A DNA stretch of 64,000 nt. It comes from Terriglobus albidus (GTDB lineage Bacteria > Acidobacteriota > Terriglobia > Terriglobales > Acidobacteriaceae). Made by a program: the position numbers and the translations under genes. Below the pieces are notes generated by a model. The model made no database searches. It saw nothing but the letters and a program-made list of their open reading frames with translations, and was not told the DNA's origin. The stretch lies in NCBI RefSeq assembly GCF_008000815.1, contig NZ_CP042806.1, positions 2,728,001 to 2,792,000 on the forward strand, given 5' to 3'. Numbering within the stretch: position 1 is the stretch's first letter; every line of letters begins with the position of its first letter. Positions 27,401-48,757 of the stretch are shown here, one piece after another.

Positions 27401-28194
27401 ATACCCAGATCGACGCTTACGGATACCTCTACCCGCAGGGCTACACCACCGCGGGTGACTACTCACTCTCGGCCTTCGATGTGCCGGTGCATCTCTCCAT
27501 CGGTGAAGTTTGGAATCTTCCTTTTGGCAGAGGGAAGACCTTCTTCAGTAATTCCTCGCGCTGGCTGGATGCCGTGATTGGTGGCTGGAATCTCTCCACC
27601 ACCACCTCGATGCAATCCGGCTATCCGCTGTCGATTGTTGCCGGCGTCAATGGCAGAAGCGCCGGTTTTTTCTGCTCGACTTCGCGTCCGTTTGTCCCCG
27701 GTGCCTCCAATAATCCCACGCCATGCGATTATGGCAACGCTCTCACCGATGTGTCGGTGCGTCCCAATCGGGTTCCTGGAGTTCCACTCATCAAGCCTGA
27801 TTGGAAGCGTGATCCTCTCGGAACAACCATTGGCGGCGGCATCCTGAATCCGAACGCGTTTTCTATGCCAGGGTCTTTAGACAACCCTGCATTTGGAAAC
27901 GTTCCCCGGACGATGGGAGATGCGCGGAATCCCCGCAGCATCATCTCCAATGCCACGCTTAGGAAGCGGTTCGACCTCTCTGAATCACGTGTGAAGCTTG
28001 AGCTTTGGACGGACGTGATCAACGTCATGAATCACACCAACTACTACCTTCTGAATAACAGTCCGGCTATCCACGGAGCGTTCTCTACGATTCGATCCGA
28101 TGGAACGTTCGCACAGAACGCTTCCTTCGGTCTGGCGAATGCGCAGGCTCCGGGAATGCGGCAGTTCAATCTGGGGATAGCTCTCACGTTCTGA
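24427..28194 (+). CDS. TonB-dependent receptor, Oar-like, with carboxypeptidase-regulatory-like domain
   Basis: A 1255-residue outer-membrane receptor. The long leader ends about residue 38 (WTWAQA), then a CarboxypepD_reg domain at 43-125 (ITGLVTDPKGDVIPGAQVTVTS). The plug at about 130-270 carries LPFPERNVLAAVLFAPGV and GGSRQGMNPQLVDGSDLTLAG, and the barrel ends in MRQFNLGIALTF. GAGG sits six bases before the ATG. It follows the tandem GH-A pair by 222 bases on the same strand, so import of their products is the likely job. The 3' side is closed by the 115-base hairpin element at 28203. Confidence 0.92.
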   Translation: MKDIDLARRISRVTCARTALLLLWGLVAVFGGSWTWAQASSGTITGLVTDPKGDVIPGAQVTVTSSAGNFTTQTKTSNEGVYEVPAVPPGSYLLKIHSPGFNTKNISGINVSVGGITQVDAKLDLGATTEVVTVTAEGELLNTSSATLQTTIEKEVLTDLPFPERNVLAAVLFAPGVTGDPQTNDGVGSELPNAYNGPIAPGAGLTIGGSRQGMNPQLVDGSDLTLAGFPRTGVTFSGDAIQSVSVQSIGLPAQYGRSGGGVINQGSRAGTSKYHGALRWRHRDPAFMIPARGSGGAPPNEHLNLFTIAVGGPVPLPFHKNKTFFFFAYEPLRNTSATYTRKRFLTPDEIAGRFNNSFDLLDQTILRNQGYAAAVNAPRTGAVVYQFARNAQGFPVGNRLPVAQYQRAANNDISQQAAANPITKFLLASQPTPDQSTSYARFFYPDGHYDPDGMNGYGVRGVTTNDDRYSLRVDENLTAKDRIFVRYTNVPVSGIRYDYNGPSTPVLNQPSESVNGWNVSANYVRTVKATMVNEFRATYLRSDDSLTPAPASLTKDFNTGLGLPPSIRGEGLAGFIFSNNLTTLGQSVGFGKILNETYGFGDDYSMLMGRHSIKFGVDYRALQLNRYDETNLYGGSFTCNTGLTNGAGFTGSSCVAGYMLGLFNTFTVNTPHAYYYRWKYGAAYVQDDWRILPRLTINVGLRYNIETPRMEKFNYQGSFISNGTGTLNGVATTGGFAFSGTNGLPTTMWPINYKGLEPRLGLAYQPARFMTMRASYAMMHTPLTGLGNNIVPNLTSGAATTGTNGVGGVGSGWVNLITNPIANAAPPAAPVVSNTLLESWNGTSYLPAVNQSSAAPYVQLWSASLQFQLGKGTLVEADYVGQKGTHLYSTPVPVNVPSINAITAAIKSRANLITASKDQYGNTSTALQRMKPYPQFFQNSIYTAYDRNAGSNYNALYLSGRQQMKFGLSLFASFSWSKSLDDASSGQGGPGDTQIDAYGYLYPQGYTTAGDYSLSAFDVPVHLSIGEVWNLPFGRGKTFFSNSSRWLDAVIGGWNLSTTTSMQSGYPLSIVAGVNGRSAGFFCSTSRPFVPGASNNPTPCDYGNALTDVSVRPNRVPGVPLIKPDWKRDPLGTTIGGGILNPNAFSMPGSLDNPAFGNVPRTMGDARNPRSIISNATLRKRFDLSESRVKLELWTDVINVMNHTNYYLLNNSPAIHGAFSTIRSDGTFAQNASFGLANAQAPGMRQFNLGIALTF

Positions 28195-28202
28195 TGAGGC
28201 AG

Positions 28203-28317
28203 TAGAGCATTTCTCCTGTAGGTGTAGTGCAGGGCTTTTGCATCTATGGGCGTTTTCCTCAATGAAAACGCCGCTGCACTCCCCTTTCAGGATCCCAGCA
28301 ACAGGAGAAATGCTCTA
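28203..28317. repeat. 115-base TA-bounded hairpin element, copy 1 (MITE-like)
   Basis: Terminal inverted repeats GAGCATTTCTCCTGT and ACAGGAGAAATGCTC are flanked by TA on both sides. The interior pairs AGTGCAG with CTGCACT, and GGCGTTTTC with GAAAACGCC at the tip, so nearly the whole element folds on itself. Its reverse complement aligns end to end with 47152-47266. It has no coding capacity. A TA target, internal self-complementarity and full-length copies suggest a non-autonomous element mobilised by an IS630/Tc1-type transposase encoded elsewhere. Here it lies between convergent genes and may also serve as a terminator. Confidence 0.75.
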
Positions 28318-28329
28318 AAGACGATGCCT

Positions 28330-29373
28330 TCACATCGAGGGTATCGTCTTTATTTCGCCCTTCCGTTTGCATCCGCAGGACTCCCGAATGACAAGCGAGG
28401 CCGGGATCTTGATACGAACACGAGATGGCTTTGTCTTCTGCTCAATCTGCTCCAGCAGCCGGAGAGTCGCCTGCTCGGCCATGGCTTCGATCGGCTGTTG
28501 TACTGCACTCAGGCGCGGGCGAATGGCCCGCGAGAGCGGGATATCGCCATAAGAGAAAAATGCCAGATCGCGTGGTATGGAGATACGCAGCTCTTCGAAA
28601 GCCTCCAGGAAGAGCACCGAGGTATCTCCGTTGAGAGGAAAGAGAGCTTCGATAGGCCGTTTGCCGCTTCTCAGTGTCTTGCAGATCTGTATCGCAGAGG
28701 CGGCATCGTCGCAGCGGATGTAGGGAAGAGCCGGCAGACCTGCAGCATGCATGGCATCCTGATAACCGAGGATGCGCTCCTGGATTGGTCTGATCTGGGC
28801 ATCGATACCGGTGATCGCAATTCGCTTGTACCCATGTTGCAGCAGGTGTGAGACGGCTTCGCGGGCAGCTGTCCGATCGTCGACGGTGACGAAGTCTACA
28901 CCGGCGCCTCGCAGTGGCCGGTCGATCGCAACCGTCGGAATCCCCCCCATCTTCTCCAGCGGAATGGTGCTGCCTGGAGAGGATGCAAGAAGCAGTCCAT
29001 CGACATGATGATCGTGCATCCGCTCAATCAGTTCGAGGTCGCTGCTGGGATCGTCGTTGGTTGCAGCGATCCACACAAGATAGCCTCGCGCGTGAGCCGC
29101 CTGTTGCACGCAATGCGCGATCAGCGAGAAGAACGGATTGGCAAGGTTGGGAAGGATCAACCCAATCACCTTGGACGGTTGGCCCATCAGCACGCGTGCC
29201 GCGTAGTTTGGCCGATATCCAAGGCGATCGATCGCAGCCTTCACCTTACGTGCGGTTGCGGCTGAGATATTCGGATTGCCATGCAGATAGCGTGACACCG
29301 TCATGGTGGCAACACCTGCTGCTTTGGCGACGTCGGCGAGGGTCACGCGACCCATGGGGCGAGAGACGGACAC
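28330..29373 (-). CDS. LacI-family transcriptional repressor
   Basis: A 347-residue regulator with a LacI helix-turn-helix at residues 10-30 (VTLADVAKAAGVATMTVSRYL), a hinge helix (AARVLMGQPS), then a periplasmic-binding-protein-like sugar domain, ending in the RESCGC tail. It opens divergently from the eight-gene glycan run, with an operator-like palindrome overlapping that run's promoter, so it very likely represses it until an imported sugar or intermediate binds. The start is GTG with a strong GGAGG five bases upstream; an in-frame ATG six codons later is the alternative. The ligand is unknown but should derive from a uronate-containing glycan. Confidence 0.9.
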   Translation of the reverse strand: MSVSRPMGRVTLADVAKAAGVATMTVSRYLHGNPNISAATARKVKAAIDRLGYRPNYAARVLMGQPSKVIGLILPNLANPFFSLIAHCVQQAAHARGYLVWIAATNDDPSSDLELIERMHDHHVDGLLLASSPGSTIPLEKMGGIPTVAIDRPLRGAGVDFVTVDDRTAAREAVSHLLQHGYKRIAITGIDAQIRPIQERILGYQDAMHAAGLPALPYIRCDDAASAIQICKTLRSGKRPIEALFPLNGDTSVLFLEAFEELRISIPRDLAFFSYGDIPLSRAIRPRLSAVQQPIEAMAEQATLRLLEQIEQKTKPSRVRIKIPASLVIRESCGCKRKGEIKTIPSM

Positions 29374-47151: not shown

Positions 47152-47266
47152 TAGAGCGTTTTCCTGTTGCTGGGTATCCCGGAAGGCGAGTGCAATGGCG
47201 TTTTCATTGCGGAAAATGCCCTATTATGTGTAAGCACTACATTACACCTTCAGGAAAAATGCTCTA
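47152..47266. repeat. 115-base TA-bounded hairpin element, copy 2 (MITE-like)
   Basis: Same design as 28203-28317 in the opposite orientation: TA-GAGCGTTTTCCTG ... CAGGAAAAATGCTC-TA, with GGCGTTTTC and GAAAATGCC at the tip. The two copies align over their whole length with scattered changes and two compensating one-base shifts. The terminal TA at 47265-47266 is part of the araA stop codon, so the insertion appears to have used that TA as its target and left the protein intact. It now lies between araA and the LacI gene and may act as their transcript boundary. Confidence 0.75.
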
Positions 47267-48724
47267 GCCGCGCGTTAGTGCCTGGCGGATATCGCGCAGC
47301 CTGGTCTCGGCATCGATGCGGATCAGCTCAATTCCGGCAATCGCTGCAAAGTCTTCCATGTGCTCCATCGTAAGCGCCTGGCTGAAACCTGTGTGGTGCG
47401 CTCCTCCGGCATAGATCCACGCGGCTGCTGCTGCCTTCAGGCTCGGTCGTGGAATCCAGACGGCCCGTGCGACTGGCAGACGGGGCAGATCGTGCTCCGC
47501 AGGAATTACATCCACATCGTTGACAATCATACGGAAACGGTCGCCCATATCAACAACGCTGGCAACAATGGCCGGACCCGCGGGAGTATTGAAGACCAGA
47601 CGAACTGGGTCCGCCTTGCCGCCAATGCCGAGAGGATGAACCTCAAGCGAGGGTTTGGCGTCGGCGATGGAAGGGCAGATCTCCAGCATGTGCGATCCCA
47701 GCACCTTGGGTGTGCCGGAGAAATCGTAGGTGTAGTCCTCCATGAACGAAGTTCCGCCCGTCAGGCCCTGCGCCATCACCTTCATCACCCGTACCAGTGC
47801 GGCCGTCTTCCAGTCGCCTTCTCCGCCGAATCCAAAGCCATCAGCCATCAGACGCTGTGTCGCGATGCCAGGGAGCTGACCCATGCCGTGCAGATCTTCA
47901 AAGGTGTCGGTAAATGCGCCGAAACCGCCTTCCGTCAGAAATGCGCGCAGTCCAAGCTCAATGCGGGCGGCTACGGTCAGCGAGTCGGCCCGGTCATGCT
48001 GGCTCGCGATCGAGTAGCTCTGACGGTATTCGCTGACCAGTCTGGCGACCTCCTGATCGCTGAACTGCGCCATGCGGTCGGTAAGGTCGCCGATGCCATA
48101 GCCGGAGACGGTGTACCCAAAAACACGCTGAGCCTCGACCTTGTCGCCTTCGGTGACGGCAACGTGACGCATGTTGTCGCCAAAGCGGGCGACCTTCAGG
48201 TTCTGGGATTCGTGCCAGCCGAGCGCGGCGCGGCTCCAGACGCCAATCTCGGCGACGGTCTCGGGATCTTCGAAGTAGCCGACGACGACCTTTCTGGGTA
48301 GACGGAGTCTGGCGGTGATGTGTCCGAACTCACGGTCGCCATGGGCGGCCTGGTTCAGATTCATAAAGTCCATGTCGATGGTCGCCCACGGCAGCTCGCG
48401 GTTGAACTGAGTGTGGAGCTGCAGGATCGGCTTGCGCAGCAGCGACAGGCCGGCGATCCACATCTTGGCCGGAGAAAACGTATGCATCCACAGCACCAAT
48501 CCAATGCAGCTCTTGCTGGAATTGGCCTCCTGGCACAGGTCTCGAATCGCTTCAGGAGAGGTCAGCGTTGGCTTCCAGACCACCTTTGCGGGAATAGCTG
48601 TGCTGCTGTCGAGCGATGCGGCAATTTTCGAAGAGTTCTCCGCGACCGTTGCCAGGGTTTCAGGACCATAGAGGTGCTGGCTGCCGGTCACAAACCAGAT
48701 TTCCAGAGAAGCTGTCGATGCCAT
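47264..48724 (-). CDS. araA: L-arabinose isomerase
   Basis: A 486-residue isomerase converting L-arabinose to L-ribulose with Mn2+. [17 protein letters not shown] opens the family sequence. The metal and catalytic residues are in view: Glu in [11 protein letters not shown], Glu in [10 protein letters not shown], His in [11 protein letters not shown], and His in [12 protein letters not shown] at 48724 starts at the family-typical place; AAAGGA lies about 10 bases upstream, and an 11-codon longer GTG start lacks support. It diverges from araD, so the 145-base gap holds both promoters. The stop codon coincides with the end of the 115-base hairpin element. Confidence 0.96.
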
Positions 48725-48726
48725 CG

Positions 48727-48736
48727 ATACGTTTTC
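48727..48736 (-). promoter_or_regulatory. GAAAACGTAT motif before araA
   Basis: On the minus strand GAAAACGTAT lies 3 bases before the araA ATG. An identical copy in the other direction stands before araD (48831-48840). The AAAACGT core recalls LacI-type half-sites. Confidence 0.4.
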
Positions 48737-48757
48737 CTTTCGCATTGCCCCCTTCAC

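Follow-up and report, generated by a model that had tools for sequence, protein, structure and literature searches.

The window analysed here, a stretch of 64,000 nucleotides from Terriglobus albidus (contig NZ_CP042806.1), carries two copies of a repeat of about 115 bp belonging to a high-copy, mobile, non-autonomous element family. The observations as a whole are probably explained by a hairpin repeat which inserts in one orientation at an asymmetric TA target, is often seated within stop codons, and leaves the encoded protein unchanged. An earlier sequence-only reading of this DNA had proposed a non-autonomous mobile element with TA flanks and a stop codon as target, and this stood, as did the sharp ends and further copies that it required; its proposals that the element had replaced the end of araA and that it was moved by an IS630/Tc1-type transposase did not.

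The features of the two copies are given in Table 1. The reverse complement of copy 1 aligns end to end with copy 2, the coordinates of the sequence-only reading proved exact, and both copies are bounded by TA. A covariance model of the family also places both at full length with these ends, the two copies being themselves part of the model. The terminal 17-mer of the element has three matches in the window at up to three mismatches, compared with 0.05 expected from shuffled sequence. The arms of copy 1 span 22 nt and are 91% complementary, and its predicted single-stranded DNA fold is better than that of all 200 of 200 shuffles (z = −8.4). This copy lies outside any stop codon, and a TonB-receptor-like gene (ending at 28194) and a LacI-type gene (ending at 28330) converge on it from either side. 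Copy 2 is more decayed (fold z = −3.1, with 2 of 200 shuffles folding equally well) and is flanked by araA and a LacI-type gene, which share a strand. The names araA, LacI and TonB receptor are those of the sequence-only reading, which we take to be correct from recognition of the proteins. An intrinsic terminator was considered and rejected; one and two terminator-like matches were detected near the two copies against 0.3 and 0.4 expected from shuffles, and their tails are poor in T. A second short palindrome, followed by a few T residues, adjoins copy 1 between the convergent gene ends (window positions ~28317–28353).

Table 1. Features of the two element copies in the window
Feature	Position	Strand	Basis or remark
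Copy 1, TA to TA	28203..28317	−	Alignment, arms, fold, covariance model
Copy 1, right-end outer arm (element's own orientation)	28203..28219		
Copy 1, left-end outer arm	28301..28317		
Copy 1, apical hairpin	28249..28272		9-bp stem and 6-nt loop; homologous stem covaries across genera
Copy 2, in araA stop codon	47152..47266	+	Alignment, covariance model, araA comparison
Copy 2, apical hairpin	47197..47220		
araA TAG stop	47264..47266	−	Formed by the target TA and the adjoining first base of the element within it
araA ORF	47264..48757	−	497 aa; C-terminal 35 residues the same at L248, a locus without the insertion

The window's own genome (G000) is a single contig of 6.4 Mb, and L numbers in the following text denote fetched loci. 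The 22-base left end of the element occurs 279 times in G000 at up to three mismatches and its reversed control not at all. A first look by BLAST in the same genome returned 320 candidates, of which 40 were scored; at least 41 strong matches, 88–100% identical, were among those listed. When the genome and 40 relatives were searched for the left end at no more than one mismatch, it was found in 4 of the 41, all of one genus and with 130–221 matches each, and in none of the other 37. The covariance model gave at least 150 matches in each of these four carriers (150 being the number scored), 2, 4 and 6 matches in three other congeners, and none in the remaining 12 of the 19 congeners. The copy counts used below were obtained from fetched loci rather than from whole genomes, and comprise 148 copies from G000 and 104 from elsewhere after removal of duplicates. 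In being short, numerous, sharp-ended and bordered by terminal inverted repeats, the copies have the character of a MITE.

Related elements extend beyond the genus. The exact ends TAGAGCATTTYYCCTR were detected in 43 of 300 genomes and 15 of 79 genera (own genome and carriers included) of a family that is probably Acidobacteriaceae. In 74 such sister loci, 45 elements with paired ends could be read, 41 of them 113–118 bp in length, along with 37 further end matches that had no partner. Many of 40 of these stretches had been chosen for two ends lying ~100 bases apart, which favours this length; among 34 loci not chosen for a visible pair, 16 of 18 elements also measured 113–118 bp. Thirty-two of the 41 sister elements are less than 90% identical to each other. 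A match in Sinorhizobium (L100) consists of a single end and was taken as chance, and in viral contigs nine single 17-mer matches were found, none with a paired end.

Among 134 near-full copies from G000, TA is present at the left end in 118, at the right end in 95, at both in 87 and at neither in 8; at shifted positions it is found in at most 6 of the 134. Of 18 loci compared with a sequence lacking the copy, 9 showed a single TA replaced by TA...TA; small indels occur in the flanks of some, and at one of the nine (L139) the compared sequence is another copy of the host repeat. At the other nine the junctions have diverged or been rearranged, leaving no clean empty site, and these were left uncounted. 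As judged from sequence, the TA...TA structure is compatible with a 2-bp TA duplication and equally with insertion beside a TA. Another family, which shares the terminal repeat (ends AGAGCATTTCTCCTAATA) and has a different interior, is nested at the same TA of the first family in two separate copies from G000 (L139:1500–1612 and L200). High copy number, sharp ends, single-TA empty sites and this nested family together indicate that the element is mobile and non-autonomous, as the sequence-only reading had it.

Long terminal repeats, TA at both ends and one-TA empty sites would also be expected of an ordinary MITE of a TA-targeting DDE transposase of the IS630/Tc1 or IS5/IS427 type, with the fold and the stop-codon excess as side effects of its inverted repeats and of selection acting on insertions elsewhere. 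We hold this to be rather unlikely, in part because of the target itself. With copies oriented by their interior, a pyrimidine (C or T) precedes the left TA in 126 of 134 own copies, and beyond the right TA 76 copies have C at +2 and 75 have G at +3. The sister elements are similar, with C or T at −1 in 36 of 41 and C at +2 in 22 of 41. A flank matrix trained on the other genomes assigned the right orientation to 95 of 112 non-orthologous own copies; in the reverse test, 57 of 73 were assigned correctly. IS630/Tc1 enzymes are expected to use a symmetric TA target with no fixed orientation; the flank asymmetry and fixed orientation observed here are not what such a target predicts. The asymmetry also persists in 128 copies lying outside called stop codons, which speaks against an ordinary DDE-type MITE.

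As the sequence-only reading had noted, copy 2 shares its terminal TA with the araA TAG stop. That reading also took the element to have replaced the end of araA, a claim contradicted by L248, a locus of genome G008 where the element is absent and araA has the same C-terminal residues (Table 1) with TAG at the same codon. At L251 (G017), also without the element, araA stops at this codon with TAA, and two other carriers (L249 and L250) have the element at the same place; in seven more distant congeners (L252–L258) the C-terminal ends of araA differ and are uninformative. On these comparisons araA is intact, neither shortened nor replaced. Both ends of the element read TA-G inwards, so that an insertion in the TA of either TAA or TAG leaves TAG.

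The stop codon as target, suggested originally by copy 2, holds for more than a third of the copies examined. Such seats account for 49 of 127 own copies (a gene meets the right end in 36 and the left end in 13), or 43 if 10 ORF-overlapping copies are left out. They account for 27 of 77 copies in other carriers and for 20 of 41 sister elements, with two more of the latter having too little flank. These counts rely on a simple home-made codon-usage script which called 92% of the window coding and may err in single calls; by its calls, 17 of the 127 own copies lie inside an ORF once the copy is removed. Stop-codon TA sites make up 5.5% of stop and non-coding TA sites, or 9.6% when weighted by the target motif, and stop-codon use in the window's own genome is about four times that predicted by the local motif. 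Stratified by motif, the insertion rate at stop TA sites is 3.1 times that at TA sites within the following 60 bp, at which an insertion should do about as much harm, which argues against selection on an ordinary DDE-type MITE as the source of the excess.

Preservation of C-termini was assessed at 77 stop-codon gene ends (76 copies), of which 23 had a match near the C-terminus in another genome. Seven loci had a close relative (at least 87%) without the element, and TAA or TAG was located at exactly the same codon in six; at the seventh (L011 versus L270) the reading frame continues, and this looks like an insertion within the gene. Truncation as an alternative to seating was considered and rejected. 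Where a gene meets the left end, A or G follows the right TA in 21 of 23 cases versus 73 of 128 copies outside stop codons, as would be expected had the site been a real TAA or TAG.

When 32 sister elements were aligned with 7 own copies, the consensus contained outer and apical stems, and 12 of its 26 predicted pairs show compensatory changes. For a specified 32-pair structure, pairing is seen in 91.2% of cells versus a shuffled mean of 84.0, 120 cells are changed on both sides versus 43.7, and the covariation score of 0.274 compares with 0.138 in shuffles, none of 500 being as high; the shuffles keep relatedness in, and the structure was read from the same sequences and is thereby favoured. 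On two stricter measures the margin is smaller, with 14 pairs with double change versus 10.2 in shuffles (3 of 500 as high) and 39 further pair types versus 35.1 (15 of 500). Versions of the structure slid along the alignment scored 0.042–0.144. A covarying apical stem located far inside the terminal repeats speaks against an ordinary DDE-type MITE.

The covariation of the apical stem could reflect a role in RNA rather than in mobility. The compensatory stems and the seat at or just after stop codons are features of a structured 3'-UTR element whose hairpin protects or tunes mRNAs, its mobility being secondary. Against such an element stand the at least 150 matches in four congeners compared with 0 to 6 in the other 15 of 19, and Rfam gave no match in the window at the gathering threshold nor in 10 loci at E values up to 1. 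Same-site copies in different species gather unpaired changes, unlike a conserved regulatory part. We therefore consider a 3'-UTR RNA element very improbable. A settled copy seems free to decay, which would fit selection on the fold during movement rather than lasting function at each site.

The subtypes of the two arms match in 201 of 224 copies. Concerted evolution of the arms was considered and rejected: same-site copies across species, in a comparison where some listed pairs are neighbouring rather than same-site copies, retain their subtype, with changes that fall in a single arm each time, indicating that the arm match is inherited. Shared-site copies at L010, L081 and L105 differ in blocks (columns 30–37 and 77–84), and these may represent gene conversion between copies.

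The search for a mobilising enzyme covered DDE_3 genes and unusual ends in G000, DUF4096 and DDE_Tnp_1 genes in the four carriers, and Y1 genes in the 19 congeners. The only IS630-type element found in G000 (PF13358, 1160 bp, two identical copies at L132 and L133) has unrelated ends, and no IS630-type autonomous partner with the ends of the repeat was found in that genome. The IS5-type search, based on PF13340 and PF01609 only, gave no loci in G008 or G015; 20 IS5-type or DDE_Tnp_1 loci were found in G000 and G012, none bordered by the repeat's ends, and ordinary copies lie near three of them, away from the IS ends. This want of matching ends at the IS630-type element and the 20 loci is a further point against an ordinary DDE-type MITE, and with the target asymmetry and fixed orientation it goes against the IS630/Tc1-type transposase named in the sequence-only reading. 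In addition, among 22 pairs of ends spaced 170–4000 bp apart in G000, no IS was recognised, L136 having been read through and the others judged by their end letters only. At L136 (~1165–1427), another repeat with inverted ends GAGGGTGTGTCATCAAACTC lies inside a copy. Elements of the IS870 type insert at CTAG and make a TAG stop. The Terriglobus element resembles these and the IS630-family MITEs in its apparent TA duplication, the CTAG-like context of many copies and the making of a TAG stop, and differs in its asymmetric target and in that no IS630 element with these ends was found in G000.

The repeat also resembles a REPIN-like element moved as single-stranded DNA by a Y1 (RAYT) transposase, in its folded single-strand architecture, fixed length, oriented insertion and location near gene 3' ends. 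GTAG REPs, which are likewise folded and located near the 3' ends of genes, are reported often to provide flanking ORFs with a TAG stop from their own ends (PMC3733652), and so the supply of stops by a repeat has a precedent. Y1 genes are present in 17 of the 19 congeners regardless of carriage, all four carriers among them. Six of 18 stretches (4–8 kb) around carrier Y1 genes hold a copy, about as many as copy density alone would give, and none of the 18 holds a copy on both sides; among the carrier Y1 genes, examined to uneven depth, no RAYT gene was found to be flanked by the repeat. Ten Y1 regions in G000, G008 and G012 hold other inverted repeats, including a 52-nt pair that flanks the gene in one subfamily. 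The Y1 subfamily 'LGMLRIQDEGD' is found at 90–92% identity in G008 and G012, and no non-carrier compared exceeds 59%; it was rejected as a candidate since it lies between its own 52-nt repeats. Loci L318, L327 and L333, from three carrier genomes and with similar neighbours, each have a RAYT-like Y1 gene inside its own 52-nt inverted pair. The GTAG tail is also missing, as the TAG is preceded by G in just 3 of the 134 own copies and 4 of the 97 from elsewhere. With a TA-bounded unit of 115 bp, no such tail and no cognate Y1 gene in the regions examined, the repeat differs from GTAG REPs and REPINs, and movement by a RAYT enzyme appears improbable.

The closest known kinds are the TA-bounded MITE-like repeats and the GTAG REPs, and the repeat works like the former in other bacteria. 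ERIC/IRU/RU-1, RUP and Correia/NEMIS are described as elements of less than 200 bp with terminal inverted repeats, TA ends and a stem-loop, many of them intergenic and considered non-autonomous (PMC2229807, PMC2759123); the Terriglobus element shares their size, terminal repeats, TA ends and stem-loop. An oriented asymmetric target and strong stop-codon seating, as measured here, set it apart in a comparison made by description and Rfam only. According to the same accounts, RU-1 has been found fused to coding regions and once apparently eliminated a normal stop codon, whereas the Terriglobus element recreates the stop, and an IS630 partner has been proposed for RUP, whereas none was found for this element in G000. 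No account of this repeat family was found in the literature searched, which lay mostly outside subscription journals. As far as these searches show, three features are new: insertion in one orientation relative to the target, a measured excess in stop codons together with C-termini preserved in alleles without the element, and a covarying fold of fixed length shared across genera.

In the explanation we prefer, that of an oriented hairpin repeat, a single strand of the element would fold into one long hairpin, in which the terminal repeats pair as a 17-bp outer stem, followed inwards by a short inner stem and, at the tip, by 9–11 bp of apical stem. Insertion would occur at a TA within an asymmetric target, approximately YTAKCG in the element's orientation, and in one orientation relative to it. 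With G as the first base inside the TA at either end, TAG would be rebuilt in a TAA or TAG codon and the protein left the same. An enzyme acting in trans may recognise the folded strand, or both ends as duplex, and target choice together with tolerance may give rise to the excess in stop codons. It is a tentative and, on balance, doubtful suggestion that the repeat represents a distinct class in the Terriglobus family, in which an undescribed recombinase moves a single strand that is folded and of fixed length, with an asymmetric TA target and an adaptation to stop codons. If that were true, this would be a mobile element able to fill the ends of genes with no protein changed.

For an element of this kind, every gene offers in its stop codon a site where insertion does almost no harm. 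The family provides a natural system in which to ask whether mobile DNA can evolve its target choice and its end sequence jointly in a manner that spares the host. The presence of the same hairpin right after the stop codon of dozens of genes also means that effects on transcript ends are testable gene by gene against relatives that have no copy.
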